The notes under the pieces were generated by a model that made no database searches, was not told where the DNA came from, and saw nothing but the letters and a program-made list of their open reading frames with translations. The translations under genes were made by a program, and so were the position numbers. Shown here piece after piece: positions 44,995 to 63,591 of a stretch of DNA of 64,000 bases; position 1 is the stretch's first letter, and each line of letters starts with the position of its first letter. Origin of the DNA: Pseudarthrobacter enclensis (GTDB lineage: Bacteria; Actinomycetota; Actinomycetes; Actinomycetales; Micrococcaceae); the NCBI RefSeq assembly GCF_001457025.1, contig NZ_KQ758599.1, positions 186,001 to 250,000 of the forward strand, given 5' to 3'.

Positions 44995-44997
44995 TCC

Positions 44998-46902: not shown

Positions 46903-46920
46903 CAATAATGAGGGGAAAAA

Positions 46921-48174: not shown

Positions 48175-48998
48175 GTTCGCTGCCCGCCGGCCTGCCTGCC
48201 ACTGCAGCACGCACCATTGGACTTGAAGCGACAGAGGACCTCGCGGAAGCTGGTCCGCTGGCAGGGCCAGCTGTAGTACTGAGCAGTACTGAGTCAGCTC
48301 CGGAGGAGATCCTCACCGTACACTCCGATGCTGTCATTGTTTGCAGCATGCAGGATTTCCTCGCCATGCCAGAGGTTGGCGTCGGCCACTATGCGGTGAC
48401 CTCTTCCGGACTTGGCCTAGCCATGGAACTGCTGGAATCAGGAAGCCTGGACCCTTCCCTCCCGATCCTTTGGACACTCCAGCTTCCACTGTTTGAGACT
48501 TTGGATAAGTTGCAGACTGTCGGTCTTCCGCATGCTTCCACCGTGTACAGCGTCGGCGGCGACACCATGAATACCTTCGTGGTAACTGCTGCCGGTTCTG
48601 GGGTCACCCTCGATCCTGAAAGCTTCAGGGCGGGCGTTGAAGTGGGCGGAAGCCTGATGCGGCGGCGAACAGAGGCTGGCGACGCGCGTGTCACGGCTTG
48701 GGCCAACCAGGAATTGGAGTTGCTGCGTCGAAAGCATCTCAGCGTGCTCGAACTTTTGTCACCTGCGGCGGAAGCTGTGCCTGCCGTGGGCTCCGGCACC
48801 GCGAATGCAGATTCGCGCTCATCCGACATCAAGCGGTTGGAGAATGACCTCGTTCTTCTCAAGCGCCGCTATGACGCCCTGGAGCGGAAGTATGCGGCGT
48901 TGTCCAAGTCCCGGCTGGGTGCTCTGACACTTCGGATGTGGGACCGTCGGAATCCCCGAAACAAGAATGCCAGCGCTACGAAAGACGGCGAAAAGTGA
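48171..48998 (+). CDS. Hypothetical protein with C-terminal coiled coil
   Basis: The 275-residue protein overlaps wecC by ATGA. The first 160 residues look like an incomplete alpha/beta (GT-like or Rossmann-like) domain (VLSSTESAPEEILTVHSDAVIV, LPILWTLQLPLFETLDKLQ) without recognisable catalytic motifs. Residues about 220-250 form a coiled coil (DIKRLENDLVLLKRRYDALERKYAAL), with a basic tail. Placement between two biosynthetic enzymes suggests a scaffold or chain-length role, which is only an inference. Confidence 0.72.
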   Translation: MSSLPAGLPATAARTIGLEATEDLAEAGPLAGPAVVLSSTESAPEEILTVHSDAVIVCSMQDFLAMPEVGVGHYAVTSSGLGLAMELLESGSLDPSLPILWTLQLPLFETLDKLQTVGLPHASTVYSVGGDTMNTFVVTAAGSGVTLDPESFRAGVEVGGSLMRRRTEAGDARVTAWANQELELLRRKHLSVLELLSPAAEAVPAVGSGTANADSRSSDIKRLENDLVLLKRRYDALERKYAALSKSRLGALTLRMWDRRNPRNKNASATKDGEK

Positions 48999-51277
48999 AG
49001 CAGCTTAGCCAGACGAACACTATGGTCCTGACCGATCCGGACTACGGGGCGACAATGCTTCTGGACAGCACGGCCCGTACGGCTGAAATAGCTGCCCTCC
49101 GGAATTCTTTGAAGAACAGTCCCGCCGCGGGGGATCAGTCTTCCACCGACCTGGTTAATGGGGTGAGTGTCATCATTCCCAGCTACCGTGGGCGTGACCG
49201 CATCCTGGTCACCCTTCAATCCCTTATCGAGCAGGCGCTCGATCCTGCCTCGTTTGAAATTGTGCTCGTGATTAACGGCGAAGATGACGGTACGTTCGGC
49301 CTGGTGACCTCGCTGCGGGAGGCCCACCCTGAGCACAATTTCAGAATCCTTTACCAGAGCAAGCCGAGCGCGGGTGCGGCCCGCAACCTGGGGATCATGG
49401 CGGCGACCTTCCGGTACCTTACCTTCTTGGACGACGACGACTACGTCGGGACCGCGTTTCTGTCAGCGTTGCTCGAGTCCGCCGCACCGAACACGGTCTC
49501 CGTGGCCCCCATCATCAACGTCTCCAGCATGGGGGAAGAAGATCTACAAAATGCGCTGAACCTGCAGATCACCGCTCGTGGGTCCAAGACTTTCAAGTTC
49601 AATGCCGTCAGCAGCATTCTGGGATTCAATGCTTGCAAGCTGATTCCAACGGCCGCGGCCAGGCGGGTCTCTTATTCCGAAGGTCTCAGAAGCGGCGAGG
49701 ACATCTGCTTCATGGCTAAACTGGCCGTGACAAACAACTTCGACGCCGTAGTAGCATCCAACGACGCCTCCGCTGCTTACTATCGTGTCCTGCGCGATGA
49801 ATCAATTTCCCGGCAGCCTCTGGACTTCGACTTCGCGGTCCAGCAGAGGTTGGAGGTCATCAGTGAGCTTGAGGCCATGCGCAGTTGGGATTCGTCGGCA
49901 AACGATGTGCTCGTGTCAGGGCTGATTCGTTCTCAGTCGAATTTTGTAAGGCGCTACCTGGACGAGCACCCCCAAGACCGCGCAAAGGTCGTAGACAGCG
50001 TTGAATCCTTTGATTTCAAGGACTTCCCTTGGGCCAAGATCAACGAGGGAACTGCGCGGGATCTCGTCATCAGCTACTGTTTCGCGCCATATTCGGACAC
50101 GAGCGCCGTGATCGCAGCCAAAGCGGTTGTGGAGCGCGGCAACGTCGTTGATGTCATCTATAACAACATGTCGGCAGTACGCCGAAAAGACAACAACCTG
50201 GAGGCCATTGCCGGTCGCTTCGTCGATGCGGCAATCGAAGTCAACGCACCCGCATCCTTCTCAGGCTGGTCGCAGATTTCTGAATTCGTTGAAAAGGGCA
50301 TCGCTATCGCCGATAGGCGCGACGCTCTGATCGGAGGGTACAGATCCGTATACAGCCGCGTGCTGTGGCCGGGCTCGCACTTCCTGGCCGCGCTGTTCAA
50401 AATCAGGCACTCCGGCGTCACCTGGACGGCAGAGTTCTCCGATCCGCTGAGCACGGACGCCAACGGGTCCATGCGCCGCGGAGATCTCGTCCGTGACGAG
50501 GCATTCGAGGTCTTGCGCCGCGCGGTAACGGCTAAAGGCTTTCCCGCCCTCGAAACCGACAGTCTTTTCACTTGGTGCGAGTACTTGACTTATATCTTGG
50601 CCGACGAGTTGGTCTTCACCAACACCAATCAGCTTTCGTACATGTTGGATCACGTCAGCGATAAGCGGCTGAGGAAAATGATCGAAAAGAAGGCGACCGT
50701 GCGCGTGCACCCCACACTGCCTCCGCGTAGCTATCGCATCCTCCCGTCGAAGTACCCACTCTCGGAAGCCGTCGTCAATATCGCCTACTTTGGCGCATTT
50801 TACGAGAACCGCGGGCTTCATGAGGTGTTGACGGCGCTGGCAAACTCATCACCCGAGGTCCGCCGCCGGCTCCGCCTTCACGTGTTCACGAACAAACCCG
50901 ACGAGCTTGAAGGGCAGATTCACAACTTTGGCCTTGCCGGAGTCGTAAAGTCGCAGGGATACCGCCCGTACCTGGAGTTCCTGAATCTTGCGACGCAGTT
51001 TGATGTCCTGCTTGTCAACGACGTCGAGCGCACAGGGGAAATGTCCATCAATCCGTTCCTTCCCTCTAAATATTCTGATTACAAGGGGGCAGACAAACCG
51101 ATATGGGGTCTGGTGGATGAAGGGAGCGCACTGAGCCGTGAATCTCTGGCCTACATGTCACGTGTTGGCGACGGACCGGGTGCCCTGGGAGTCATCAATC
51201 AGATCCATCGCTCACGTTTCCCGTCCACACCTCGGCAGGATCTAGAGGCAGGAAGGACCGGGCAAGTTCATGCGTGA
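48995..51277 (+). CDS. Two-domain glycosyltransferase (GT2 plus GT4-like)
   Basis: GTG 48995 overlaps the previous stop by four bases, giving 760 aa. Residues about 50-290 form a GT2 domain with VSVIIPSYRGRDRILVTLQS near 55, AARNLGIMAA near 126 and the metal site TFLDDDDYVG near 144. After a 100-residue linker a GT-B-like domain follows (DLVISYCFAPYSDTSAVIAAK near 350, VNIAYFGAFYENRGLHEVL near 592, NPFLPSKYSDYKGADKPIWG near 686). The DDDDY motif resembles that of the other fused GT upstream, suggesting they are functional partners. Confidence 0.82.
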   Translation: MKQLSQTNTMVLTDPDYGATMLLDSTARTAEIAALRNSLKNSPAAGDQSSTDLVNGVSVIIPSYRGRDRILVTLQSLIEQALDPASFEIVLVINGEDDGTFGLVTSLREAHPEHNFRILYQSKPSAGAARNLGIMAATFRYLTFLDDDDYVGTAFLSALLESAAPNTVSVAPIINVSSMGEEDLQNALNLQITARGSKTFKFNAVSSILGFNACKLIPTAAARRVSYSEGLRSGEDICFMAKLAVTNNFDAVVASNDASAAYYRVLRDESISRQPLDFDFAVQQRLEVISELEAMRSWDSSANDVLVSGLIRSQSNFVRRYLDEHPQDRAKVVDSVESFDFKDFPWAKINEGTARDLVISYCFAPYSDTSAVIAAKAVVERGNVVDVIYNNMSAVRRKDNNLEAIAGRFVDAAIEVNAPASFSGWSQISEFVEKGIAIADRRDALIGGYRSVYSRVLWPGSHFLAALFKIRHSGVTWTAEFSDPLSTDANGSMRRGDLVRDEAFEVLRRAVTAKGFPALETDSLFTWCEYLTYILADELVFTNTNQLSYMLDHVSDKRLRKMIEKKATVRVHPTLPPRSYRILPSKYPLSEAVVNIAYFGAFYENRGLHEVLTALANSSPEVRRRLRLHVFTNKPDELEGQIHNFGLAGVVKSQGYRPYLEFLNLATQFDVLLVNDVERTGEMSINPFLPSKYSDYKGADKPIWGLVDEGSALSRESLAYMSRVGDGPGALGVINQIHRSRFPSTPRQDLEAGRTGQVHA

Positions 51278-52142
51278 GGATTGGGACGAACAGTACAAGG
51301 CACCAATCCGCCGATGGGCATCTGTGGCAGACCTGCGGGTTCGAGGCCGTGAGCGCCACATCGTGGAACCGGGACAAGGCGAAAGCTACCCCTTGGACTG
51401 CCTCGTAGTTCCGAAGGATTCCCCGACCCTGGTTGTGGCACTGCACGGTGCCCTCAACCGGGAGGTCTACACGCTGCCGCGCTTCGAGTGGGCCACAACG
51501 CTCGGTCACCGGACCGAGAGCCTGCTGTTTTTGGCAGACACAGCCCTGCAGGCGAGCGACGACCTTAAGCTCGCTTGGTACACCGGCAACGAGTCGGACG
51601 ATCTGACGTCCAGGTATGCGGCTCTGATCCGCAGTACAGCGGTGCAGTGCGGGGCGTTCAACGTGCTGCTGCTGGGATTTTCCGGAGGGGGCTTCGCTGC
51701 CCTTGCACTCGCCGCGCAGCTTGAAAACTCCGTGGCTTTGGCATTTTCGCCGCAGGTGTCCATAGGCAAGTACTACCAAGTCTTTGCGGATCAATACGTC
51801 GCATCAGTTTTTCCGCAGTACGACTCCTTCGAAGCTCTGGTAGAAGCCCATGGCCGCCGCGTTAGTGTCCTGGAACGCTACAAAGACCCCGCCGTGACAG
51901 CACGCTTCGTGTACGTGCAGAACAGCGGCGACCGGCATCACGTTGAAAATCATTTCAAACCGTTCCATGAGCTGGTGCACGGACGGCCCGGAGCCACTTT
52001 TATCCTCACCCATGAGTCCGACTCCCACACCGTTCCCTCCAGGAAAAGTGTGGGGGAGATGCTGGATCAGTGCGTGGCGTCATTCAGCCACGCTTCTGGG
52101 GGAGAAGCCCGGCCTGCGTCGGTGGGGAAGGGCGGGCGTTAG
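51270..52142 (+). CDS. Putative alpha/beta hydrolase (possible glycan esterase)
   Basis: The 290-residue protein overlaps the preceding glycosyltransferase by eight bases. It is a single alpha/beta hydrolase-like domain: TLVVALHGALNRE near 54, then the nucleophile elbow GFSGGGFAALALAAQ near 132, SDSHTVPS near 250 with the catalytic His. There is no signal peptide. The hydrolase sits between a glycosyltransferase and an acyltransferase in a polysaccharide operon, so deacetylation or a transacylation step is possible; this is inferred, as similar Ser-hydrolases act in capsule and accessory-Sec loci. Confidence 0.75.
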   Translation: MREDWDEQYKAPIRRWASVADLRVRGRERHIVEPGQGESYPLDCLVVPKDSPTLVVALHGALNREVYTLPRFEWATTLGHRTESLLFLADTALQASDDLKLAWYTGNESDDLTSRYAALIRSTAVQCGAFNVLLLGFSGGGFAALALAAQLENSVALAFSPQVSIGKYYQVFADQYVASVFPQYDSFEALVEAHGRRVSVLERYKDPAVTARFVYVQNSGDRHHVENHFKPFHELVHGRPGATFILTHESDSHTVPSRKSVGEMLDQCVASFSHASGGEARPASVGKGGR

Positions 52143-52700
52143 GTGCAAGACTTCTTACATGAGTTAGATGTTCTGAAGAGGGAGGTTGCAGAACTTAGGC
52201 AACTCTTATCCGCATCAGCTCCGCGACGCGAGGCCTGGATCCCGAATGACACCTTTATCGGCGAGAACTGCAATATCGCGCCCACGGTCCAGTTCATGTC
52301 CGGGGAGAACCGCGAAATCCGGGTTGGTAACCGGACAAACATCTACCGTGGGACTGAAATTACCGGACCCGTAACCATAGGGGACGGGTGCCTGATTAAC
52401 CGTGACGGTTACCTCAGAAGCAACACGACTCTGGGAAACAACGTCATGGTCGGCCCGTTCACGCGATTCGTTACTGATTCCCACGAAGTAGGACCGACGC
52501 AGAAGCGTGGAGGGGCCAATAAGTGGCCTCCCATCCACGTAGGCGACGGCACCTGGATCGGGGCAAGCGTCACCGTCCTTGGCGGGGTGAACATCGGGAA
52601 AGGCTGCATCATTGCGGCCGGAGCCGTAGTCGCAGCTGACGTACCGGACAACAGCCTCGCCGGAGGCGTTCCGGCGAAAGTCATCAAGGCCCTCCCTTAG
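52143..52700 (+). CDS. Hexapeptide-repeat acyltransferase
   Basis: GTG 52143 starts directly after the previous stop. The 185-residue protein has an N-terminal helical coiled-coil-like segment (about 1-30) and then left-handed beta-helix repeats (IGENCNIAPTVQF, NIYRGTEITGPVTIGDGC, IGASVTVLGGVNIGKGCIIAAGAVVAADV), ending in GGVPAKVI. The active-site His is in VTDSHEVG. It probably O- or N-acetylates the polymer or a sugar nucleotide. It is the last gene of the 40.2-52.7 kb operon. Confidence 0.9.
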   Translation: MQDFLHELDVLKREVAELRQLLSASAPRREAWIPNDTFIGENCNIAPTVQFMSGENREIRVGNRTNIYRGTEITGPVTIGDGCLINRDGYLRSNTTLGNNVMVGPFTRFVTDSHEVGPTQKRGGANKWPPIHVGDGTWIGASVTVLGGVNIGKGCIIAAGAVVAADVPDNSLAGGVPAKVIKALP

Positions 52701-52736
52701 CACCGGTCATGGCAGGTCGCGAGCAAATACGAGCGG

Positions 52737-54215
52737 TCAGGTTCGGCTGGAGTTCATTTCCGTGAGCGCCCCTGTGCCCGTATTTGTTACGCAGACTGTG
52801 CGGGCCTTGTTCATATTTACGTTGAGCCGCATCACGATGCCCATGTTAGTCGTGTTGGCACTAAACGAGGGTGCTGTGTTGACGCCGCCGTGATGCGCGT
52901 TACTTTGTATCAGTAACGCGTTGCTGTTGCCTATGGCAATTGCCGTTCCGCCCCCAAATATCGTATTGCTCGCTGCGACGCTGTCTGCGACGTAGTTGAG
53001 GAAAATGGAGACGAAGTTTTTGCCGTCGTCTTGCCTTATAACGTTGTTCTTGACGATGGCACCGGCCGCTGGTGACCCCTCCGTGCCCACTAGATTGATT
53101 GCCATGCCGAGGGCATTTGGAGAAATGCGATTGTCTGAGATGGTAACGGAGTTAGACCTTATGACGTCGATCGAGTTGGCAGGGTAGGCGGACTGGTTGC
53201 CTCCTCGGCCCAGTGTGTTGTTGACGATTCTCACGTCACTGGCCTGCACCTTGATAAATCGTCGCGACACATTCGAGATTTCGTTGTCTGAGATCGTGAC
53301 GTCAGCAGGAGGGTTCGACGCTGATCCGTCATAGAACAGAATCTGGATGGCGTCACCTTCCTCGCCTGTGATGTTTTCAATGGTGTTCCCGGTGATTAGC
53401 GACTCGCTCGTTGAAGCCGCGTTGTTCGTCAGGACAATCCCGCGTGCGGCGCCGTTGTTGTTTCCTAGGACCTTATCTCCGGTTGCTTTCACGTTGCGGA
53501 TGATGTTTTGGCGTATGACGCATCCTCCACCAGTAGAGACTTCAATGCCCCGCGCTGTGCTGGTTGTTGAGTAGATATTCTCGACGATGCTCGACTCGAC
53601 GAGCGCCCCTGCTGCAGCGACCTTGATGCCGTAGTTGGCCTTATTATTTCCATCGATGTGAACCGTGAGTCGGGCATTGGCTCCCAGCACGGTGAGGACG
53701 ATGATGTCCTGTGCATCGGCAATTATCCGCGCATTGCGCATCAACAGTTGTCTGTTGTCTCCGGCAAGGGTCAGGCCAGATGTAATCCGGTACGTTCCGT
53801 CCGTCAGTGCTACACCGCCTGCTGCAAGCCAAGCTTTTAGCGCGTTGGTATCGTCCGTTTGTCCGTCACCGACCGCGCCATAATCCCTAGCGTTGATGCT
53901 CAAATCGCGTTTCCTGACGAATGTGGCTGAAAGATCCGGCAGCTGACCCATAGGCAGTTTGGACGATGGATCTAAGGTAGCCACCCCGTAGGCAGCTCCC
54001 TTTTCTGCCAAGGGTACAAAACCAGAGCCTGTAGTTTGAGGATTCGACGCAGCTTCAGCGGGAGCCACACCAAAGCCTTGGACGGCTGACGTGCCTGTCA
54101 GGGCCGCTAAGAAGGTACCCAGCCGCAGTAGTTCGCGCCTGCGTGGGAGGGATCCCTGATGAGGAGACGCGGAGTTGTCCCGCGATGCCCTACCCATTGC
54201 GCTCTTCCCTCGCAT
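52737..54215 (-). CDS. Tat-exported right-handed beta-helix protein
   Basis: The 492-residue protein starts with a Tat signal (SLPRRRELLRLGTFLAALTG, cleavage near AEAAS). Next is a short linker (FVRKRDLSINARDYGAVGDGQTDDTNALKAWLAAGG) that matches the N-terminal entry seen in pectate-lyase-superfamily and phage-tailspike-like proteins. A run of parallel beta-helix coils rich in Asn and hydrophobics follows (VTISDNEISNVS, IVNNTLG, ITGNTIENIT). No catalytic triad can be assigned. It likely binds or cleaves a polysaccharide outside the cell. The gene converges with the biosynthetic operon. The next 200 bases upstream hold no gene. Confidence 0.87.
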   Translation of the reverse strand: MRGKSAMGRASRDNSASPHQGSLPRRRELLRLGTFLAALTGTSAVQGFGVAPAEAASNPQTTGSGFVPLAEKGAAYGVATLDPSSKLPMGQLPDLSATFVRKRDLSINARDYGAVGDGQTDDTNALKAWLAAGGVALTDGTYRITSGLTLAGDNRQLLMRNARIIADAQDIIVLTVLGANARLTVHIDGNNKANYGIKVAAAGALVESSIVENIYSTTSTARGIEVSTGGGCVIRQNIIRNVKATGDKVLGNNNGAARGIVLTNNAASTSESLITGNTIENITGEEGDAIQILFYDGSASNPPADVTISDNEISNVSRRFIKVQASDVRIVNNTLGRGGNQSAYPANSIDVIRSNSVTISDNRISPNALGMAINLVGTEGSPAAGAIVKNNVIRQDDGKNFVSIFLNYVADSVAASNTIFGGGTAIAIGNSNALLIQSNAHHGGVNTAPSFSANTTNMGIVMRLNVNMNKARTVCVTNTGTGALTEMNSSRT

Positions 54216-54424
54216 CCGTGCCGAAAGTAGTCATTTCGGATGCTGTGCCTGGAGCAAACATATGCGCCTCTCTAACTCACTTTCGTCGTCTCCATAAGCT
54301 AGGAGGGCGAACGCAAATCAGACACAGTGGGAAGTACCTGTTTGTTGCGGTTGGAACACTGGGACCTGGGCGAAAGCACCTAGGTTGTGGGACCGAAGGT
54401 GAACCGCAGTCAGCCCAACTGCAA

Positions 54425-55579
54425 CTAAAATGAAGCGGAGTACTCGAATTCGGCCGTGCGGCGTCCCACACCCAGCAATTGCGCAATTGCGGCAACTGTT
54501 CGGCTGGCCGCCAAGCCGTCGCCGTATGGATTGACGGCATTTGCCATGGAATCGTAATGCTCTTGGTCATGGAGCAGTCGGTAAACCTCTTTGAAGATTC
54601 TCTCTTCGTCCGTGCCGATGAGGGCGACAGTTCCGGCATCAACTGCCTCAGGCCGCTCCGTATTTTCACGCATTACCAATACAGGCTTACCGAGGCTGGG
54701 CGCCTCTTCCTGAACCCCGCCTGAGTCGGTAAGGACCACGTGGGACAACGAGAGCATACGGGTGAATTCGCCGTAGGACAACGGCTCGGTGACAATGACG
54801 TTGTCTTTGCCTTCAATGGCGGGAAGAACAGCTTCACGAACCACGGGATTCCGGTGCGCCGGCAGAACGATGGCCAGGTCCGGTTCTGAATCTGCAATTC
54901 GCGCCAAAGCACGGCCCATGCCGCGCATGGCGTCGCCCTGGTTTTCACGGCGGTGGGTAGTGACCAGAAGGATCCTGCGTCCGCTGTTTGCGAGCATCTC
55001 AAGCTGTGGGTCGGAGAACGGGACGTGCTTGTCCACGGTGGTCAGCAGCGCATCGATCACCGTGTTACCGGTGATCACGATGTTCGCTCCATCGATACCT
55101 TCGGCCAGGAGATTCGCTTTGCTGGTGCTGGTGGGAGCCAAGTGGAGGCTGGTGATTTGGCTGGTGATCTTCCGATTGGCTTCCTCTGGGAAAGGCGACA
55201 TAAGATCGCCGCTGCGCAGCCCGGCTTCGACGTGAACTACGGGGATGCCATGATAGAAGGCGGCAATGGCGGCCGCTGTGGAGGTTGTGGTGTCGCCCTG
55301 GACAATAACCGCGTCCGGCTTGCTTTCGGTGAACAGTTTGTCCAATCCGTCAATGGTTCGGGTCATGATGGCCGAGAGTGACTGGCGCTGCTGCAAGATA
55401 TTGAGATCGTGGTCGGGGACGATGCCGAAAAGATCGTTGACCTGGTCCAGCATTTCCCGGTGCTGGCCCGTTACTGTCACTACGCAGTCAAAATCGGCGG
55501 ATTCCTGCAGTGCGATGACAATGGGTGCCATCTTGATGGCTTCTGGACGCGTGCCGTAGATAGGCATGACTGTAGGCAT
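54425..55579 (-). CDS. wecB: UDP-N-acetylglucosamine 2-epimerase (non-hydrolysing)
   Basis: The enzyme converts UDP-GlcNAc to UDP-ManNAc. ATG 55579 follows GGGGGAAA and gives 384 aa. Motifs: YGTRPEAIKMAP near 8, VVVHVEAGLRSGD region near 94, VTTHRRENQGD near 205, LTDSGGVQEEAPSLGKPVLVMRENTERPE near 280 (UDP and catalytic residues). It feeds the ManNAc dehydrogenase encoded at 46921. The pair is a standard ManNAcA route. Confidence 0.94.
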   Translation of the reverse strand: MPTVMPIYGTRPEAIKMAPIVIALQESADFDCVVTVTGQHREMLDQVNDLFGIVPDHDLNILQQRQSLSAIMTRTIDGLDKLFTESKPDAVIVQGDTTTSTAAAIAAFYHGIPVVHVEAGLRSGDLMSPFPEEANRKITSQITSLHLAPTSTSKANLLAEGIDGANIVITGNTVIDALLTTVDKHVPFSDPQLEMLANSGRRILLVTTHRRENQGDAMRGMGRALARIADSEPDLAIVLPAHRNPVVREAVLPAIEGKDNVIVTEPLSYGEFTRMLSLSHVVLTDSGGVQEEAPSLGKPVLVMRENTERPEAVDAGTVALIGTDEERIFKEVYRLLHDQEHYDSMANAVNPYGDGLAASRTVAAIAQLLGVGRRTAEFEYSASF

Positions 55580-55686
55580 GGATTTCCCCCAAGAAAGGCT
55601 GTGTGTGACCACCCGATGTTACAACAACGTCACGTGAAGCATGCATTTGCGCGGGGTGTCTGGAGGCATGTCAGCTGTGAGAGCCG

Positions 55687-56277
55687 CTATTGCCGGTCAG
55701 CGTTGGCTTCGCCGACGCATTCCGGCCTCAGTATCACGTCGAGCAGGCCGCCGCTCTCAATGACGAACCGGTCCAGCCACTGTTTGGGGTTGAAGTCGGG
55801 GGTTGATCCCACAGTGTCCACCTGGGCATGGGTGCACTGCCTTATAAGTGTCCCGGCCCTTGCCACGTGATAGCGGGAGGTGACAACGGTGATGTCGGTC
55901 CATCCCTGGGCATTAACCAGGCGGCCGATGGCCCGGGCCTCACCCCGGGTATCTTTCGTTTCGAGGTCAAGGCATATCAGCCAACGTGGCTTCGCGGCTT
56001 CGTCATGGCACATGGCGTCCGCGCTGGCGTTGCCGGGGGTGCTGCTATGCGAAATCACAAGGAAGGGTATACCGAGCGATGCGCGCCGTTCCTCAGCCAA
56101 CGGGAGCCGTTCGGTGCTCGCGCCGCCTAGCATGATGACAGCGTCGGTCCGTGAAGCTGATGGGGCTGGTGGGCAGTAGAACACCAAGAATGCAAGGGCA
56201 AGCCACAGGCCTAATGAGATCCAGGCCGTCGCGAGCGCCCGGCGCGCGAAAAGTATGAAGCCAACGGAATCGGGCAC
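55687..56277 (-). CDS. YdcF/ElyC-like DUF218 membrane protein
   Basis: The 196-residue protein has one N-terminal transmembrane segment (ATAWISLGLWLALAFLVFYC), then a DUF218 domain outside the membrane: DAVIMLGGAS near 45, SHSSTPGNAS, VTSRYHVARAGTLIRQC near 140. ElyC-type DUF218 proteins act in envelope-precursor homeostasis in E. coli; the molecular activity is unknown. It may be cotranscribed with wecB, 107 bases downstream. Confidence 0.83.
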   Translation of the reverse strand: MPDSVGFILFARRALATAWISLGLWLALAFLVFYCPPAPSASRTDAVIMLGGASTERLPLAEERRASLGIPFLVISHSSTPGNASADAMCHDEAAKPRWLICLDLETKDTRGEARAIGRLVNAQGWTDITVVTSRYHVARAGTLIRQCTHAQVDTVGSTPDFNPKQWLDRFVIESGGLLDVILRPECVGEANADRQ

Positions 56278-56687: not shown

Positions 56688-58580
56688 ATGTGTGGAATCG
56701 TGGGTTATGTAGGCCGTTCTGTTGACGGTGCGGTTGATGGTCACAGCGCCTTGGACGTTGTCCTTGAGGGTTTGCGCCGGCTGGAGTACCGCGGTTATGA
56801 CTCTGCCGGTGTTGCCGTGGTGTCCGAGGGCGCTATTGAGGCGCGGAAGAAGTCCGGGAAGCTGAGCAACCTGCTGGCTGAGCTGGAGGAGCGTCCGTTG
56901 CCGGAGACCCTGACGGGCATCGGCCACACCCGGTGGGCCACCCACGGTGGTCCTACGGACCGCAACGCGCACCCGCACTTGGCCGATGAGGGCAGGCTCG
57001 CGGTGATCCATAACGGCATTATCGAGAACTTTGCCGAGCTCAAGCTCGAGCTGCTGGACAAGGGCGTGAAGTTCCTGTCCGAGACGGACACCGAGGTTGC
57101 TGCCGCGCTGCTGGCGGACATTTTCCGGAACCAGCTTGGCGGGGACGTCTCCAACGGCGGCCTGACACGCGCCATGGAGCTGGCCTGCCAGCGCCTTGAG
57201 GGTGCTTTCACGCTGCTGGCCGTGCACGCGGACCAGCCCGACGTCGTGGTCGCTGCCCGCCGCAACTCACCGCTGGTGGTTGGCCTGGGCGAGGGGGAGA
57301 ACTTCCTGGGTTCGGACGTGTCCGGGTTCATCGATTACACCCGCCGCGCGGTGGAGCTGGGCCAGGACCAGATCGTTACCATCACCGCGGACACGGTGGA
57401 GATCACCGACTTCTTCGGGAACCCTGCCGCCGGCAAGGAATACCACGTGGATTGGGACCCGGCGTCGGCGAAGAAGGGCGGCTTTTCCTCCTTCATGGAG
57501 AAGGAAATCCATGACCAGCCCGACGCCGTGGCGCAGACCCTGCTGGGCCGCTCCGACCTCGAGGGCAAGCTGACCCTGAGCGAGCTGCGGATTGATCCGG
57601 AGCTGCTGAAGAAGGTCAACAAGATCATCGTCCTGGCCTGCGGCACCGCCGCGTATGCGGGCACGGTGGCGAAGTACGCGATTGAGAACTGGTGCCGGAT
57701 CCCCACCGAGGTGGAGCTGGCGCACGAGTTCCGCTACCGGGACCCGATCCTGGACGAGAACACCCTGGTGGTGTCCATTTCCCAGTCCGGGGAGACCATG
57801 GACACCCTGATGGCCGTCCGGTACGCCCGGGAGCAGGGCGCGAAGACCATCTCGATCTGCAACACCAACGGTTCGACCATCCCGCGTGAGTCCGACGCCG
57901 TGCTGTACACGCACGCCGGCCCGGAAATCGCCGTCGCCTCCACCAAGGCGTTCCTGGCCCAGATCACCGCTGCGTACCTGCTGGGCCTGTACCTGGCGCA
58001 GCTGCGGGGGAACATCTTCTCCGGCCAGATCGCGGACGTCCTGGCGGACCTGAACAAGATCCCGGCGAAGATCCAGACCATCCTGGACAACGCCGGGCCG
58101 CTGCGTGAACTGGCCCGGTCCATGGCGGACGAGAAGTCCGTGCTGTTCCTGGGCCGGCACGTGGGCTACCCGGTGGCCCTGGAAGGTGCGCTGAAGCTCA
58201 AGGAGATCGCGTACATCCACGCCGAGGGGTTCGCCGCCGGCGAGCTCAAGCACGGCCCGATCGCGCTGATCGATGAGGGCCAGCCGGTATTCGTGGTGGT
58301 CCCGTCCCCGCGCGGCCGCGACTCGCTGCACGCCAAGGTGGTCTCCAACATCCAGGAGATCCGTGCCCGCGGTGCCCGGACCCTGGTCATCGCCGAGGAA
58401 GGCGACGAAGCCGTCAAGGCCTACGCCGAGCACGTCTTCTACGTCCCGGAAACCCCCACCCTGCTCATGCCGCTGCTGACCACCGTCCCGCTGCAGATCT
58501 TCGCCGCCGAACTCGCCGCCGCGAAGGGCTACGACGTGGACCAGCCCCGCAACCTCGCCAAGAGCGTCACCGTCGAATAG
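56688..58580 (+). CDS. glmS: Glutamine-fructose-6-phosphate aminotransferase (isomerizing)
   Basis: GlmS makes glucosamine-6-phosphate, the first committed step to UDP-GlcNAc. The 630-residue protein starts MCGIVGYVG with the catalytic Cys 2 after Met removal. The glutaminase domain (HTRWATHGGPTDRNAHPH near 80) is followed by two SIS domains (CGTAAYAGTVAKYAIE, ISQSGETMDTLMAVR near 365) and ends in the standard DQPRNLAKSVTVE. There is no visible glmS ribozyme. Its position beside the wecB/wecC genes links precursor supply to the polysaccharide. Confidence 0.97.
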   Translation: MCGIVGYVGRSVDGAVDGHSALDVVLEGLRRLEYRGYDSAGVAVVSEGAIEARKKSGKLSNLLAELEERPLPETLTGIGHTRWATHGGPTDRNAHPHLADEGRLAVIHNGIIENFAELKLELLDKGVKFLSETDTEVAAALLADIFRNQLGGDVSNGGLTRAMELACQRLEGAFTLLAVHADQPDVVVAARRNSPLVVGLGEGENFLGSDVSGFIDYTRRAVELGQDQIVTITADTVEITDFFGNPAAGKEYHVDWDPASAKKGGFSSFMEKEIHDQPDAVAQTLLGRSDLEGKLTLSELRIDPELLKKVNKIIVLACGTAAYAGTVAKYAIENWCRIPTEVELAHEFRYRDPILDENTLVVSISQSGETMDTLMAVRYAREQGAKTISICNTNGSTIPRESDAVLYTHAGPEIAVASTKAFLAQITAAYLLGLYLAQLRGNIFSGQIADVLADLNKIPAKIQTILDNAGPLRELARSMADEKSVLFLGRHVGYPVALEGALKLKEIAYIHAEGFAAGELKHGPIALIDEGQPVFVVVPSPRGRDSLHAKVVSNIQEIRARGARTLVIAEEGDEAVKAYAEHVFYVPETPTLLMPLLTTVPLQIFAAELAAAKGYDVDQPRNLAKSVTVE

Positions 58581-59057: not shown

Positions 59058-59627
59058 TTGACTGAGATTTTGAACGACGAGCTCGACACCAATGAGGACG
59101 GTTTCAGCCGCCGCCGAGTGGTCAAGGGTGTTGCCTGGACTCTGCCGGTTCTGGTCACCGCTGTTGGCGCACCGCCCGCCTCGGCCTCGCCGGGGCCATC
59201 CGTAACACTCGAATTCGACGCGTCCGTTGCCCGAACAAAGTCAATTACGCAATCGGGCAACAATGGGCAGGGAAACGCGAGAAACGGTGTCATCCCCGCG
59301 AAGCTGATCGTGAACAACGCTTCCGGCTCAATCAGTGGGTCGATCATCATCACGGCCACTGACTCGACTCCTGCCAAGTCATGGATTGGACCAAAAAGTC
59401 TCGGAGCCAATGGCTCGGCCTCCCTCGGCCCAACCACCACTTGGGGTCCGCTTCGCACGTCGACCAGAACGTTCACGCTGACCGGAGGAACGTCCGCCGA
59501 GTATCCCATAACGTTCCAGTACAACGACGAGGGTACCCAACAGGCTGGAGTCTTTTCGTACTTGGTCACAGTTCAAGTCGGGACGACTGCCTTGGCCTCT
59601 GCGAGCCTACAGATGACTATCGCATGA
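59058..59627 (+). CDS. Tat-exported protein of unknown function; possible partner of PqqD-like protein
   Basis: TTG 59058 begins a 189-residue protein with a Tat motif (FSRRRVVKGVAWTLPVLVTAV, cleavage near SASPG). The mature part is a single Thr/Ser/Gly-rich beta-sandwich-like domain (SVTLEFDASVART, SGSISGSIIITATDS, EYPITFQYNDEGTQQAGVFSYLVTVQVG). No known family is recognised. The stop overlaps the PqqD-like gene by ATGA, so the two are made together. The coupling makes it a candidate substrate or cargo of the downstream PqqD/kinase pair. Confidence 0.75.
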   Translation: MTEILNDELDTNEDGFSRRRVVKGVAWTLPVLVTAVGAPPASASPGPSVTLEFDASVARTKSITQSGNNGQGNARNGVIPAKLIVNNASGSISGSIIITATDSTPAKSWIGPKSLGANGSASLGPTTTWGPLRTSTRTFTLTGGTSAEYPITFQYNDEGTQQAGVFSYLVTVQVGTTALASASLQMTIA

Positions 59628-59902
59628 TCTGGAATCACTGTTCGGACGTGGCACAGGTCCGCGCACAACACCGAGGCCGCGTTGCCTTGCTCCACCTAGA
59701 TGAGATTCAGCCCGTGGTGCTCGAGGGTCCGGCGGCGGCCATCTGGGACCTGATTGACGGGCAGCGGACTGAGCAGGACATCCTGGCCGAGCTGGAGGCC
59801 GCCTTCGATGACGTCCTGGGCGAGATGCAGGCGCAGGCCGAGCTCTTCCTGGCCAGCCTCGAGGCCCGGCGCCTGATCGAACCCGCGCACAGCACGCTGT
59901 AG
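59624..59902 (+). CDS. PqqD-like (RRE fold) protein
   Basis: The 92-residue protein has the PqqD winged fold: VALLHLDEIQPVVLEGPAAAIWDLIDGQRTEQDILAELEAAFD and AELFLASLEARRLIEP. PqqD-type RiPP recognition elements bind leader or tail peptides and present them to a modifying enzyme. Overlap with the upstream Tat gene (ATGA) and the kinase-like gene 20 bases downstream show one operon. Confidence 0.85.
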   Translation: MIWNHCSDVAQVRAQHRGRVALLHLDEIQPVVLEGPAAAIWDLIDGQRTEQDILAELEAAFDDVLGEMQAQAELFLASLEARRLIEPAHSTL

Positions 59903-59922
59903 CTGCGGGATGCGGGGGAACC

Positions 59923-61182
59923 ATGACAAGCACAGGTGTTGCCCGGCAGCCTGACGGGCTTTGTGGGCTGACCGGCGGCGAGGACATGCTGGCCCTGGAC
60001 ATCCTGGGGGTGCAGTTCACCGTGCGCTGGGGAGACGGCGTGACGGCGGCGCAGCGGGACGGCATGAGACTGGCCTGGTCCCGGTGCGCCGGGCTGCAGG
60101 AACCGGTCCCATCACTGCCGAGAGAAGATCTTGCTTCAGGGTTCACTGCGGCGGTCGCCTTCCGGACCCCAACGGACGACGGCGGGGTGTTCACGCTGCG
60201 GGCCACCTCCTTTGAGGAGCTGGCTGAGGGCCTGACATCCCGGCTGACGCTGACCGCCATCCTCGCGAATGCGGGCAGCCTGACCATGCTGCATGCCTGC
60301 GGCGTTGCCGACCCGGAGACGGGGGCGGTGGTGGCCCTCGTGGCCAAATCGGGCACGGGGAAAACCACGGCGTCGTCGGTCCTGGCACGGCGGTACGGGT
60401 ACGTCACGGATGAGACAGTAGCCATCCGGCCGGACGGGTCCGTTCTTCCGTATCCCAAACCCCTGTCCATCAAGCAGGCACCCGGCCTCCCCAAACAGCA
60501 GGTGGGACCGGACGCCCTGGGCCTGCTGGAAGCCCCGGCCCAGCTCCAGCTCCGGTCCATCGTCCTGCTGGACCGCGTGGAGAGTGCGGAGCCGGTGGTC
60601 CCAGTCCTAAGCAAGGTCCCGCTGGCCGACGCCGTCCTGGCACTGATCCCGGATTCCTCATCGCAGGCGGCCCTTGCCCAGCCGCTCCAATCGCTCTGCC
60701 GGCTGATCGACGCCACCGGGGGAGTGTGGCAGGTGACCTACACCGAAGCCACAGACCTGCCAGCGGCCCTGGAACCGCTGTTCCACGCCACTCTGGTCCC
60801 GAAACCAGAATGGCGGCCCGTAGCGCAGGAGAACGCCCCTAACGGGGGTATCCCGGAGGGTACGGTCCGCCGGGCAAGCTGCACGGACGCGGTAACCATC
60901 GGTGACGACCTGCTGCTGGTGCTCGAGGGCGCCGTAGTCCGCCTCGGCGGCATCGGCCCGGTCCTCTGGGCAGCGGCGGGCAAGCCCGCCAGCCTTGTCG
61001 AACTCACTCAAGCCGTCCGTGACGTCCACGGAGCTCCCCAAGGCCACGAGGCCGCCGTCGTACGTGCTGTGGAGCAGCTCACCGCCGCGGGGATCCTGCA
61101 ACGCTCCGGCAACCGAAAACTTTGGAAGGAACCACCCAATGAGCACTGCAGCCGCGCCCGAGCAGGCGCCGACCGGCCTTGA
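59923..61182 (+). CDS. HPr-kinase-like ATPase with C-terminal PqqD-like region
   Basis: The 419-residue protein has a P-loop AKSGTGKTTASS near 144 in a fold like the HPr kinase C-domain (LTMLHACGVADPETGAVVALV before it; DETVAIRPDGSVLPYP after it). From about residue 320 a PqqD-like winged domain follows (DAVTIGDDLLLVLEGAVVRLGGIGPVLWAAAGKPASLVELTQAV). No HPr is encoded here. Similar HPr-related kinase plus PqqD pairs occur in exopolysaccharide/PEP-CTERM and lasso-type loci, where they are thought to phosphorylate a peptide. Substrate unknown. Confidence 0.8.
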   Translation: MTSTGVARQPDGLCGLTGGEDMLALDILGVQFTVRWGDGVTAAQRDGMRLAWSRCAGLQEPVPSLPREDLASGFTAAVAFRTPTDDGGVFTLRATSFEELAEGLTSRLTLTAILANAGSLTMLHACGVADPETGAVVALVAKSGTGKTTASSVLARRYGYVTDETVAIRPDGSVLPYPKPLSIKQAPGLPKQQVGPDALGLLEAPAQLQLRSIVLLDRVESAEPVVPVLSKVPLADAVLALIPDSSSQAALAQPLQSLCRLIDATGGVWQVTYTEATDLPAALEPLFHATLVPKPEWRPVAQENAPNGGIPEGTVRRASCTDAVTIGDDLLLVLEGAVVRLGGIGPVLWAAAGKPASLVELTQAVRDVHGAPQGHEAAVVRAVEQLTAAGILQRSGNRKLWKEPPNEHCSRARAGADRP

Positions 61183-62677
61183 CCTGGCTGACTACCTGGG
61201 CATCTTCCGGACGTACTGGAAGGCGATCGTGTCCCTCACCCTGCTGGCCACCCTGGCGGCCATGGGGTGGACCGTCCTGCAGCCCAAGATCTATTCGTCC
61301 GATTCCAGCGGTATTGTGACTACGCCCGGCTCGGACAACGTCAGCCTGTCGCTGGCCGGTGACAGCCTGGCGAAGGCCAAGGTGAAGAACTACGAGTCGG
61401 TGGCCAAGTCGCGGCTGGTGGCGGACCGGGTCATCGCCGCGCTGGGCCTGGATACGTCCGTGGACGCCCTGCTGGGAAGCATCAGCGTGAAGGTGCCGCT
61501 GGACACTGCCGAGATCCGGGTGACGGCAGAGTCCAGTGATCCGGCCACGGCCCAGCGGGTGGCCGATGCGTGGGTGAACGGGCTCGCGGCGCAGGTGGAG
61601 GCCATCGAGACAGCCGCTCCGGCTGATGCCGCGGCAGGAACGGCTGGCACCCCCACAGCGGTCCGGGTCCTGCCGTTGGGCAAGGCCGTGCTGCCGACCA
61701 ATCCCACGTCCCCCAACACGAAACTGAACCTGGCGCTGGGCGCCCTGGTGGGCCTGGCCCTGGGTGTGGCGTACGCCGTGGTCCGCCGGCACCTGGACCG
61801 GCGCATCCGCAGGGCCTCGGACGTGGAGCGGCTCTTTGGGGTTCCTGTGATCGGCACGCTTCCGGTGGACCACCGCCTGGACGGGAAGAGCACGGTGCTG
61901 GATTCGGGGATCTCGTCGCAGGTCCACGACGCCGGGGGAGCGATGGCGGAGGCCCTCCGTGAGCTGCGCACCAACCTTAGCTTCCTGGACGTGGACCAGC
62001 CGCCGCGGATCATCGTGGTCACCAGCTCGGTGCAGTCGGAGGGCAAGTCTACGGTGACGGCGAACCTGGCCGTCACCATGGCCGCCGCGGGGGAGAACGT
62101 GGTGGTGGTCGACGGCGACCTCCGCCGGCCCACGCTGGTGGACGTCTTCAACCTGGTCCCCGGAGCCGGGGTCACCGATGTGCTCACCGGCAGCGTCCAG
62201 CTGGCTGACGTCCTGCAGCCGTGGGGTGCGCTGCCCAACCTGGCGGTGCTGGGGTCCGGGCGGATCCCGCCGAACCCCAGCGAGCTGCTGGGCTCCAACG
62301 CCATGAAGAACATGCTGGAGGCACTGGCAGAGGACGCCATTGTGCTCATTGATGCTCCGCCGCTGTTGCCGGTGACGGATGCCGCCGTGCTGTCCCGGGT
62401 GGCGGACGGCGCTGTGGTGGTGATCAGGGCCGGCAGGACCACCCAGGATCAGGTGGGCCAGTCGCTGGGGAACCTGGACAAGGTCCGGGGGAGGGTTCTC
62501 GGCTCTGTGCTGAACTACGTTCCCACCCGGGGCGCCGATGCCTACACCTACTACGGGACGTACAGGTCTTCTGTGGGCACGGCAGACGCTCCGGAGGTTC
62601 AGCCGAGTGTGCCGGCCGGCCCGGCTTTTGACGGCACTGTGGAGGCGGTCCTGAGCGGCCGCCGCGCGCGGGTGTAG
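61139..62677 (+). CDS. Wzz/BY-kinase fusion (polysaccharide co-polymerase and tyrosine kinase)
   Basis: ATG 61139 (GAAGGA upstream) gives 512 aa and overlaps the HPr-kinase-like gene by 44 bases. A Wzz-like domain with two transmembrane helices (about residues 29-50 and 203-221) precedes a cytoplasmic BY-kinase. The BY-kinase shows Walker A' SEGKSTVTANLA near 303, Walker A/B VVVVDGDLRRPTLVD near 325 and VLIDAPPLLP. The tail has a Tyr cluster (AYTYYGTY), the usual site of autophosphorylation. It controls chain length and export of a surface polymer. Confidence 0.9.
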   Translation: MSTAAAPEQAPTGLDLADYLGIFRTYWKAIVSLTLLATLAAMGWTVLQPKIYSSDSSGIVTTPGSDNVSLSLAGDSLAKAKVKNYESVAKSRLVADRVIAALGLDTSVDALLGSISVKVPLDTAEIRVTAESSDPATAQRVADAWVNGLAAQVEAIETAAPADAAAGTAGTPTAVRVLPLGKAVLPTNPTSPNTKLNLALGALVGLALGVAYAVVRRHLDRRIRRASDVERLFGVPVIGTLPVDHRLDGKSTVLDSGISSQVHDAGGAMAEALRELRTNLSFLDVDQPPRIIVVTSSVQSEGKSTVTANLAVTMAAAGENVVVVDGDLRRPTLVDVFNLVPGAGVTDVLTGSVQLADVLQPWGALPNLAVLGSGRIPPNPSELLGSNAMKNMLEALAEDAIVLIDAPPLLPVTDAAVLSRVADGAVVVIRAGRTTQDQVGQSLGNLDKVRGRVLGSVLNYVPTRGADAYTYYGTYRSSVGTADAPEVQPSVPAGPAFDGTVEAVLSGRRARV

Positions 62678-62685
62678 GCAGCGTC

Positions 62686-63591
62686 ATGGGGGAGAGCGCG
62701 GGGGAAGCGGGCCTGAGTGTCGCCGAGGGCGTCCTCCTGGGTCATGCCCTGGTGGCACGGGTGGCGGAGGACCTTGGCGTGCGGGTCTTCTTCATCAAAG
62801 GCCCGGCCAGCGTGCAGCTGGGGTTGCGGAAACCCAAGATCTCCAACGACGTCGATGTCTTCGTGGCACCTGCTGACCTGGAACTGCTGCTGGATGGACT
62901 GCGGGAGCGTGGGTGGCGGGCCCGGCCGGTGGACCCGGATGGTAGGGCCTTTCCCAAACACTCTGTGACGGTGGATCATCCCGACTGGCCGTGCTGCATC
63001 GATGTCCATTACCGGTTCCCCGGAATGGAGAAGCATGCCGGTGAATGCTTTGAGCTGATGTGGGTGCACACCCAAGAGCTGTTACTCACCGGGCAACAGG
63101 TGCGCGTTCCAACAAAGGCACTGGGTATTGTCATTTTGGTGTTGCACGCGCTACGTGCGCCACACCTCGCGGAAAGCCGTCAGGAGCTCGACTACATCAC
63201 TGCTATGGTCCAGCAGGAACAGCTTGAATCCGAAGTTTTAGACCTATCGACGCGTGCAGGTGCCCTAGCGGCTATGCGTCCCTATCTGGAATCTGTTGTG
63301 CCTGGAGAAGAAGCACCTGTATGGCCTGCTCCGTCAACGGAATGGCGAAATCGAGTTTTGGCACGGGAACCGGGAAGCGCTCGGTTGCTGGCCTTGGTGC
63401 AGGCTCCGTGGCCGGCTAAGCCAGGGATGCTGTGGCGGTCTGTTGCTCCCAAAAGTGAGACGTTCCTGGGCGGTGACATCTATGCTGACGTTTCATTTTC
63501 CGGCCGGCTGGGGCTGCACCGGGCGCGGTGGTCCCGCTTCCTGAAGGCTCTTCCGCAGATCATCAAAGACTTCAGTCATTACCGTGCTTGA
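62686..63591 (+). CDS. Nucleotidyltransferase-like protein (NTP_transf_5 family)
   Basis: The 301-residue product has the NTP_transf_5 signature: VFFIKGPASVQLG near 34, the catalytic-site NDVDVFVAPADLELLLDGL near 53 (Asp-x-Asp), and DVHYRF near 108. Family members are found next to HPr-related kinases and PqqD proteins in several loci, with unknown reaction (probably nucleotidylation). ATG 62686 follows the BY-kinase gene with an 8-base gap. It completes the five-gene cassette. Confidence 0.8.
   Translation: MGESAGEAGLSVAEGVLLGHALVARVAEDLGVRVFFIKGPASVQLGLRKPKISNDVDVFVAPADLELLLDGLRERGWRARPVDPDGRAFPKHSVTVDHPDWPCCIDVHYRFPGMEKHAGECFELMWVHTQELLLTGQQVRVPTKALGIVILVLHALRAPHLAESRQELDYITAMVQQEQLESEVLDLSTRAGALAAMRPYLESVVPGEEAPVWPAPSTEWRNRVLAREPGSARLLALVQAPWPAKPGMLWRSVAPKSETFLGGDIYADVSFSGRLGLHRARWSRFLKALPQIIKDFSHYRA

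Follow-up and report, generated by a model that had tools for sequence, protein, structure and literature searches.

A dedicated Tat signal, a kinase of predicted HprK/PEPCK fold and an NTP_transf_5 protein co-occur in actinobacterial genomes and may belong to one protein modification and export system

What could an operon do that sets a Tat-signal protein of no recognised family beside a PqqD protein, a kinase, a polysaccharide co-polymerase and a nucleotidyltransferase-like protein? We analysed such a locus in a 64,000-nucleotide stretch of Pseudarthrobacter enclensis DNA (the window), where genes for a Tat-signal protein, PqqD, an HprK/PEPCK-fold kinase, Wzz/BY-kinase and NTP_transf_5 form one tight operon on one strand (Table 1). 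An earlier note on this DNA had proposed the five-gene operon, and all five genes were indeed present on the same strand at 59058-63591. Its description of overlapping starts held for Tat/PqqD (ATGA) and for kinase/Wzz, whose reading frames overlap by 44 nt, but not for PqqD-kinase and Wzz-NTP_transf_5, which are separated by gaps of 20 nt and 8 nt, respectively. The start codon of the kinase is uncertain, and the gene caller preferred 59986. The operon is flanked by glmS and galU, as judged by sequence recognition. Extracellular polysaccharide genes often flank the system.

Table 1. Coordinates of the operon features within the window
Feature	Position	Strand	Basis or remark
Tat-signal protein, 189 aa, proposed substrate	59058..59627	+	TTG start
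Dedicated Tat signal R18 R19...W27...P30...P39...S44	59109..59189	+	logo, n=118 signals
Ser44, end of conserved signal; candidate modified residue (putative)	59187..59189	+	logo, n=118
PqqD-type RRE protein, 92 aa	59624..59902	+	PF05402; start overlaps Tat stop (ATGA)
HprK/PEPCK-fold P-loop kinase, 419 aa	59923..61182	+	predicted fold; conserved residues H124, K147, D163, E164
Kinase C-terminal PqqD/RRE-like domain, ~aa 315-395	60865..61107	+	iterated PqqD profile; solved-RRE matches
Wzz co-polymerase/BY-kinase fusion; common neighbour outside the core	61139..62677	+	TIGR01007
NTP_transf_5 nucleotidyltransferase-like protein, 301 aa	62686..63591	+	PF14907

The Tat ORF had a poor codon score (1.1) and was missed by the gene caller in the window and in several relatives. 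Despite these missed calls, PqqD was preceded by a Tat gene bearing this same signal in 21/21 rows with the matching four-gene order, and in 20/21 rows a possible PqqD start fell at -1 to +11 nt relative to the Tat stop codon. The Tat protein is thus not absent from orthologous operons, as the earlier note had considered it might be, but its relatedness is confined to one part: across 20 aligned operons, mean pairwise identity was 0.83 (83%) in the signal and 0.60 in the n-region, but 0.30 (30%) in the mature part. The corresponding values for PqqD, kinase and NTP_transf_5 were 0.65, 0.66 and 0.63. Three pairs of contigs have equal lengths and are probably the same: L032/L079, which bears on the 21-row count, L034/L105 and L036/L099. 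Of these probable duplicates only L079 entered the comparison.

Alignment of 118 signals gave the pattern RR-x7-W-x2-P-x8-P-x4-[S/T], with S in 91% and T in 7% at the final position; RR is present in all 118 by construction, and the signals were collected with profiles seeded from kinase-adjacent Tat genes, which biases them towards the pattern. R18, R19, W27 and P30 were invariant in 69 aligned Tat proteins, chosen among pattern carriers. When aligned on W, the S/T column held in 0.98 of the 118 signals, the profile seed itself ending in that Ser. With the same site picker throughout, S/T frequencies at +1/+2 were 0.56/0.44 in W-x2-P signals (n=36) compared to 0.16/0.23 in a crude control (n=56) and 0.25/0.31 in those control signals with RR (n=32), a smaller excess than in the alignment on W; an earlier control set for this Ser/Thr had been discarded for membrane-helix contamination. 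The Ser/Thr that ends the signal may serve cleavage instead of modification.

The mature parts were largely unrelated between loci, with a mean column identity of 8% over the 69 aligned Tat proteins. At least 57 of the 69 had no Pfam match and the remainder were varied; the few recognised mature domains included surface-protein types (M26, Big_1, AIDA and choice_anch_G), and a redox-enzyme domain was absent among the Pfam matches of the 69. The window Tat protein, which was the sole A3 signal-profile match in genome G000 (E 1.2e-18), gave no Pfam or NCBIfam match at E ≤ 10, and its predicted model was mostly strand at low confidence (pLDDT 57). Among 115 complete Tat proteins, signs of a C-terminal sorting signal were confined to an LPXTG-like tail in one and a hydrophobic stretch after residue 60 in two. 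A lasso-type conserved C-terminal Ser was rejected, since the C-terminal residues vary (Ser in 9/115 complete Tat proteins, Ala in the window protein). The search for a Ser/Thr tail motif, suggested in the earlier note, led elsewhere: neither a C-terminal tail nor a Ser there is conserved, and conservation lies instead in the N-terminal signal.

The predicted structure of the kinase (pLDDT 89.5) matched PEPCK with a Z of 14.0 (254 aligned, rmsd 5.0). The 50 rows listed from the VIA-align comparison included PEPCK chains and no HprK, which speaks neither for nor against HprK; Foldseek matches at E ≤ 0.001 included both PEPCK and HprK/P, with TM-scores of ~0.2-0.5. The sequence-only search gave ABC-type ATPases as the top solved matches, via the P-loop. 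The kinase matched HprK_rel_A (TIGR04352) weakly (21.5 bits, cut-off 200), and 39/47 kinases matched this family at E ≤ 1e-3. H124, K147, D163 and E164 were each at least 90% conserved in 47 kinase sequences, their catalytic roles being assigned by motif order and not by superposition of active sites. Lasso kinases carry a His-Lys-Asp-Asp set, as reported in PMC9266682, and the fourth position is Glu (E164) here but Asp in those kinases. In the predicted model the kinase adopts a PEPCK/HprK fold, and its catalytic-type residues are conserved. Some genomes (G137, G104) contain two kinases.

The PqqD protein passed PF05402 (40.9 bits vs 23.4 gathering), which 15/16 members of its family matched at E ≤ 1e-3, and among solved structures the family profile matched TbiB1 best (E 1.9e-9); the window protein fell below the TIGR04353 cut-off (19.9 vs 35 bits). 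The PqqD-like end that the earlier note had seen on the kinase was borne out: an iterated PqqD profile matched 114/122 kinase ORFs and, because kinase domains had entered this profile as it was iterated, the assignment rests also on matches of kinase profile positions 281-369 to solved RREs. Pfam PqqD against the window kinase alone gave an E of 0.18. Both the kinase and PqqD carry PqqD/RRE-type domains. NTP_transf_5 passed PF14907 (34.1 vs 31.2 bits), 15/16 family members matched it at E ≤ 1e-3, and K38 G39, D55 D57 and D106 H108 were invariant in 16 sequences. The lone solved-structure match of the NTP_transf_5 profile at E ≤ 1 (E 0.69) was taken as chance.

We surveyed 197 Micrococcaceae genomes, 54 with the kinase and 143 without, using plain genome counts. 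The Tat signal was found in 53/54 kinase-bearing genomes compared to 6/143 kinase-less genomes, NTP_transf_5 in 52/54 compared to 0/143, and free PqqD in 39/54 compared to 0/143. Within eight genera of mixed kinase status, all 29 kinase-bearing genomes carried the signal (within-genus z 6.9). At class level the signal occurred in 18/19 genomes with the kinase and 13/375 without, the kinase genomes G000 and G002 being counted in both the Micrococcaceae and the class-level sets. The 53 genomes yielded 229 signal matches, with up to 15 such Tat-signal genes per genome, and for 44 of the 69 strongest matches the kinase was either more than 20 kb away or on a different contig. The exceptions were one kinase genome without the signal (G124) and the six kinase-less genomes with it, two of which had three matches each. 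TatC was found in 11/11 kinase-less relatives tested, and an A6-type signal peptidase was missing in 24/54 kinase genomes, including that of the window. These results show that signal, kinase and NTP_transf_5 co-occur across genomes even where their genes are not neighbours; the signal-kinase pairing is retained in dozens of species, in a system previously unnamed.

The idea that the Tat protein stands where a precursor or cargo would be thereby gains strong support, from its place 5' of PqqD and from a signal that tracks the kinase also at distant loci, although the mature parts are largely unrelated. Co-occurrence of all five families held for the signal and NTP_transf_5, but Wzz was not constant. 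The BY-kinase domain passed TIGR01007 (159.3 vs 108.05 bits), and in 51/80 loci Wzz/BY-kinase was no more than 1.5 kb away from the kinase. An obligate partnership was ruled out by L100, which has the order Tat-kinase-NTP-PqqD and no Wzz match in its 17 kb; L122 shows the same order without Wzz on a 6.3-kb contig. Wzz/BY-kinase, included in the system by the earlier note, is better described as a frequent neighbour. L122 (an Armatimonadota MAG) and L147 (a Stenotrophomonas record) look contaminant or misbinned and were excluded as evidence of spread. Such a Tat gene was absent from the fetched flanks of 34/80 named kinase loci, and Tat, PqqD and NTP were all absent from those of 26/80. Six Sinomonas loci (L094, L099, L105, L109, L110 and L149) had the arrangement PqqD-kinase-Wzz with no adjoining Tat gene.

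We consider it somewhat probable (about 0.55) that this operon represents one instance of an actinobacterial system for modifying and exporting proteins, with few enzymes serving many substrates; a chemistry of phosphorylation and nucleotidylation is plausible. Substrates would be marked by the dedicated N-terminal Tat signal, which the RRE domains would bind in the cytoplasm. The kinase would then phosphorylate a substrate Ser/Thr, most likely the near-invariant one at the signal end (Ser44 here), and NTP_transf_5 would add a nucleotidyl, sugar-phosphate or hexose unit onto the phosphate. The folded, modified protein would be exported by Tat and trimmed by signal peptidase I, which is distinctive in many genomes, and the remaining N-terminal phosphodiester mark might retain the protein on the cell surface or within extracellular polysaccharide. 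More tentatively, and with the odds against it, the signal could act as a lipobox-like N-terminal sorting and anchoring device, read by the RRE domains. Its terminal Ser/Thr would be phosphorylated by the kinase and lengthened by NTP_transf_5 ahead of export, and the phosphodiester left on the mature N-terminus after cleavage would anchor otherwise unanchored proteins to the cell surface or its polysaccharide.

Alternatively, the kinase and NTP_transf_5 might make or modify a surface glycan or its lipid carrier. The Tat proteins would then be accessories that depend on this glycan and disappear with it, and their signal a mere Tat variant. The closeness of Wzz/BY-kinase in many loci favours this, as do the glycan-type genes that, by sequence recognition, occupy the window upstream of the operon and ten Rathayibacter/Microbacteriaceae loci (L096, L103, L106-L108, L113-L116 and L130) in which kinase-Wzz occurs with no Tat, PqqD or NTP nearby. 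We nevertheless regard it as unlikely: the signal is what the Tat proteins share, their mature parts having no common domain, the RRE-type domains suggest that the client is a peptide, and L100 keeps the other four genes without Wzz. Less probable still is that PqqD and the kinase form a signal-reading chaperone, an ATP-driven checkpoint of Tat export that leaves no lasting covalent modification. Such a role would suit RRE-type domains and a P-loop protein adjoining genes with a special Tat signal, and a pathway that transports folded cargo, but would leave unexplained both the constant nucleotidyltransferase with active-site-type residues and the conserved PEPCK/HprK-type kinase residues.

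That the gene set is linked merely by riding mobile polysaccharide islands, with the Tat gene as a passenger, is very improbable. A patchy distribution is in its favour, as is the lower, island-like GC (0.56-0.63) of the region ahead of the operon, between 36 and 56 kb in the window, but linkage on an island does not fit the many strong signal matches far from the kinase, nor G014 and G154, in which ~30-35 kb separate the kinase from the NTP and PqqD genes, although these have a Tat-signal gene beside them (L213, L214).

Under the modification-and-export reading, the substrate class is now definable by a simple motif, and one small machinery is predicted to serve up to 15 proteins per genome. 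Modification before Tat export, if it occurs, would explain why such proteins use Tat; if the reading is true, it could reveal a new means by which Gram-positive bacteria keep proteins at the cell surface. No publication on this Tat signal or on its link to an HprK-like kinase was among the matches listed in the open-access literature, and a term search of PMC12710340 and PMC7470986 did not find 'kinase'.

Several known systems resemble this one in part. As in exosortase/PEP-CTERM and sortase/LPXTG systems, in which one enzyme serves many tagged proteins, a short tag occurs on unrelated exported proteins, several per genome, and tracks one machinery; here, however, an N-terminal Tat signal serves as the tag, and a kinase and a nucleotidyltransferase make up the machinery in place of a transpeptidase. 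TorD/DmsD-type chaperones serve Tat redox enzymes and read the Tat signal before export, much as a cytoplasmic protein is proposed to do here, but the present system has a PqqD/RRE fold, kinase and nucleotidyltransferase partners, and Tat proteins without redox-enzyme domains. HPr-rel-A (TIGR04352 kinase, TIGR04353 PqqD), for which we know of no substrate, also pairs an HprK-related kinase with a PqqD-family protein; it differs in that the window proteins score far below both cut-offs and the kinase here bears its own RRE-like end. HprK/PqqD/nucleotidyltransferase gene sets occur in several bacterial groups and, to our knowledge, none outside lasso peptides has an identified substrate.

The lasso-peptide systems come closest. 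According to two reports, lasso kinases phosphorylate a Ser of a ribosomal peptide and PsmN is required for a hexose on the phosphate (PMC8498205, PMC9266682). The earlier note's view that HprK-related kinase/PqqD systems have no established reaction needs revision: reactions on lasso peptides have been reported for kinases of a related HprK-like type and for a protein annotated as a nucleotidyltransferase. The PadeK, ThcoK, SyanK and PsmK systems with PsmN combine, as here, a PqqD-type B1 (RRE), an HprK-like kinase and an annotated nucleotidyltransferase; the likeness of PsmN to NTP_transf_5 lies in that annotation. The five genes of this operon, in contrast, include no Asparagine-synthetase-like cyclase and no B2 protease, the proposed substrate is a 189-aa Tat-signal protein lacking a conserved C-terminal Ser, and a genome may hold up to 15 candidate substrate genes. 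Lasso-peptide tailoring by PadeK and PsmK/PsmN provides the chemical precedent for the modification proposed here.

We confirmed in position and common strand the five genes that an earlier note had assigned to one operon. Its claim of overlapping starts held for the Tat/PqqD and kinase/Wzz pairs, the latter sharing 44 nt, but not for PqqD and kinase (gap of 20 nt) or Wzz and NTP_transf_5 (gap of 8 nt). PqqD, NTP_transf_5 and BY-kinase passed their curated Pfam/NCBIfam cut-offs, the kinase matched HprK_rel_A locally (aa 119-185, 21.5 bits, cut-off 200), and the Tat protein had no Pfam/NCBIfam match at E ≤ 10 (NCBIfam 2026). The codon score of the Tat ORF (1.1) was too poor for a gene call by codon statistics alone, so its status as a gene rests on comparison with relatives. 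It was the only match of the Tat-signal profile in its own genome (G000). The low-GC stretch upstream of glmS and the operon is probably an acquired polysaccharide island.

Features of the window (entries marked "presumably" were assigned by sequence recognition)
Feature	Position	Strand	Remark
Tat-signal gene	59058-59627	+	start codon TTG; stop overlaps PqqD ATG as ATGA at 59624
PqqD	59624-59902	+	
Kinase	59923-61182	+	
Wzz/BY-kinase	61139-62677	+	
NTP_transf_5	62686-63591	+	
Presumably glmS	56688-58580		upstream flank
Presumably galU-like	start 63672		downstream flank
Low-GC stretch	36001-56000		GC 0.56-0.63, down from 0.67-0.73; presumably holds glycosyltransferase-like genes
Presumably ABC exporter pair	about 43230-44994		in low-GC stretch
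Twin-arginine protein	52737-54215	−	N-terminus PRRRELLRLG; signal without W-x2-P
Gene run, presumably resembling phenylacetate degradation (paa) cluster	28742-33708		

Named genomes were scanned around the kinase, and the best 80 of 171 relatives were taken, some with flanks ending at contig ends. A Tat gene of the same signal type was found in the fetched flanks of 46 of these 80 loci (≤1.5 kb from the kinase in 39/80). Of the 80, 62 had Wzz/BY-kinase, 42 PqqD, 36 NTP_transf_5 and 24 signal peptidase I; 34/80 lacked the Tat gene in their flanks, and 26/80 lacked Tat, PqqD and NTP_transf_5 alike. Twenty-one rows share the order PqqD-kinase-Wzz-NTP, namely the window itself, L031, L032 and, among the named loci, 18 (L071-L085, L087, L088 and L104). 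Absence of the Tat protein from orthologous operons would have counted against the earlier note; its gene heads all 21, with a possible start of PqqD at −1 to +11 nt relative to the end of the Tat gene (stop codon) in 20 of them (+28 in L081). Other arrangements were Tat-kinase-NTP-PqqD in Intrasporangium oryzae (L100, no Wzz match in 17 kb) and in L122 (no Wzz match on its 6.3-kb contig), and kinase-Tat-NTP-PqqD in L119. Sinomonas loci L094, L099, L105, L109, L110 and L149 carried PqqD-kinase-Wzz without adjoining Tat or NTP genes, and in three family-set genomes with that arrangement (G104, G150, G186) NTP_transf_5 and 2-3 signal matches lay at other places. One locus (L057, genome G067) held three Tat-signal genes within about 7 kb of the kinase. 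A six-cysteine signal peptidase I lay near the kinase in L148, L150, L144, L141, L132, L123 and others; the window's genome is without it. Actinobacterial-type modules in records named Stenotrophomonas maltophilia (L147) and Armatimonadota MAG (L122) probably reflect contamination or misbinning.

Relatedness of the Tat protein across orthologous operons proved true of its signal and largely not of its mature part: over 20 operons (the window, the 18 named loci and L031), mean pairwise identity was 0.83 in the signal (RR to end), 0.60 in the n-region and 0.30 in the mature part (minimum 0.15), with 0.65 for PqqD, 0.66 for the kinase, 0.86 for Wzz and 0.63 for NTP_transf_5. The pattern RR-x5..9-W-x2-P fitted 118 of 134 distinct profile-gathered Tat-signal ORFs, 117 with x7. 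Nine of the other 16 carry it behind a second RR that our script skipped. The remaining seven depart from it: three from L163 have no Trp, the one from L175 has no Pro, and the spacing is longer in two from L171 and one from L176. Across the 118 signals, in percentages that lean on the gathering profile, Pro occupied W+12 in 99% and W+17 was Ser (91%) or Thr (7%), beyond which conservation ends. With one site picker as a crude control, Ser/Thr frequencies at +1/+2 after the cleavage site were 0.56/0.44 in 36 W-x2-P signals, 0.16/0.23 in 56 other signals and 0.25/0.31 in the 32 of these 56 that have RR. Only M1, R18, R19, W27 and P30 were invariant in 69 aligned W-x2-P Tat proteins (mean column identity 8%). 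At least 57 of these 69 had no Pfam match; the remaining matches included RCC1-type repeats (3), M26-type protease (2), Big_1 (2) and AIDA (1), and NCBIfam added choice_anch_G in L068 (105 bits, cut-off 45) and a below-cut-off M6-like protease in L187. None of the 25 NCBIfam families listed for the 69 describes the signal, the commonest being formate_TAT (6 proteins, best 0.037).

Co-occurrence was assessed as genome counts in 197 genomes of one family, taken as Micrococcaceae from its named relatives (kinase E ≤ 1e-20, signal E ≤ 1e-3, NTP_transf_5 E ≤ 1e-15, PqqD E ≤ 1e-6, six-cysteine signal peptidase I >160 bits), with a signal profile seeded from Tat genes near kinases. The kinase was found in 54 genomes, the signal in 59, NTP_transf_5 in 52, PqqD in 39 and the peptidase in 32 among the 73 genomes listed. 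The signal occurred in 53/54 kinase-positive vs 6/143 kinase-negative genomes, NTP_transf_5 in 52/54 vs 0/143, PqqD in 39/54 vs 0/143 and the peptidase in 30/54 vs 2/143; the two kinase genomes without NTP_transf_5 are fragmented into about 400 (G067) and 170 (G179) contigs. Within the eight genera mixing both kinds of genome, the signal was present in 29/29 kinase-positive genomes (stratified expectation 17.0, z 6.9) and also in five kinase-negative ones; the window's genus gave 5/5 and 0/7. Signal matches numbered 229 in kinase-positive (maximum 15, G043) and 10 in kinase-negative genomes, and for 44 of the 69 strongest matches in the kinase-positive group the kinase was >20 kb away or on a different contig. 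G014 and G154 have their NTP and PqqD genes next to a Tat-signal gene (L213, L214), at a distance of about 30-35 kb from the kinase; two kinases each were present in G137 and G104. Joint inheritance of loci that lie far apart speaks for functional dependence. Tandem Tat-signal arrays >100 kb from the kinase (L196 in G139, L200 in G287) suggest substrate expansion.

TatC was found in 11/11 tested relatives lacking kinase and signal. Among 394 class-level genomes, where the kinase search scored no more than four candidates per genome, 19 had the kinase, 31 the signal and 18 both; 9/13 kinase-less signal matches had E > 1e-6, as did 1/18 kinase-bearing ones (G414). NTP_transf_5 occurred in 9/216 class-set genomes, namely seven kinase genomes plus G256 and G206. 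Two genomes (G077, L216; G174, L217) showed three signal matches each with kinase and NTP_transf_5 undetected, which may reflect recent loss, another machinery or missed genes; the searches used a loose first pass, so that a part of the absences could be undetected genes.

The kinase model (47 sequences, pLDDT 89.5) has a predicted PEPCK/HprK fold (best structural Z 14.0 over 254 residues); Foldseek ranked PEPCK first (E 3.5e-5, TM about 0.3) and HprK/P twelfth (1.9e-4). By sequence alone, its solved matches were P-loop ATPases only, outside the C-terminal RRE-like end. That end was matched by an iterated PqqD profile in 114/122 kinase ORFs, and there the kinase profile itself matched solved RREs (TbiB1, 2.7e-4). 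TbiB1, a lasso RRE, was also the best solved match of the free PqqD family (1.9e-9). NTP_transf_5 kept K38 G39, D55-x-D57 and D106-x-H108 in 16/16 sequences. Kinase residues H124, K147, D163 and E164 were conserved at ≥90%, and lasso kinases require His-Lys-Asp-Asp, as described in PMC9266682.

For lasso clusters, PMC8498205 and PMC9266682 describe precursor Ser phosphorylation by an HprK-like kinase and the need for PsmN, an annotated nucleotidyltransferase, if the phosphate is to receive one or two hexose units; PsmN might there still be a genuine nucleotidyltransferase, with a host enzyme acting after it. By analogy, the RRE domains would bind the Tat signal, the kinase would phosphorylate the substrate, most likely at the signal's final Ser/Thr (Ser44 in the window), NTP_transf_5 would extend the phosphate, and Tat would export the protein before signal peptidase trims it. 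The results themselves establish the link of signal and machinery, the folds and the conservation, and each chemical step is an inference from them and from the lasso precedent. Because nearly all Tat proteins lack a C-terminal anchor of the kinds sought (LPXTG-like tail in 1 and hydrophobic stretch in 2 of 115 complete proteins), surface attachment via the modified N-terminus is proposed as our boldest and rather doubtful reading.

An open-access literature search, by listings, found no description of the signal or its kinase link. The HPr-rel-A families are related, but the operon's proteins score under their cut-offs. The conserved tail motif suggested for the Tat protein did not appear as a lasso-type C-terminal Ser; in this, and in having neither cyclase nor B2 protease, the operon differs from lasso tailoring, which it resembles in its proposed mode of working.
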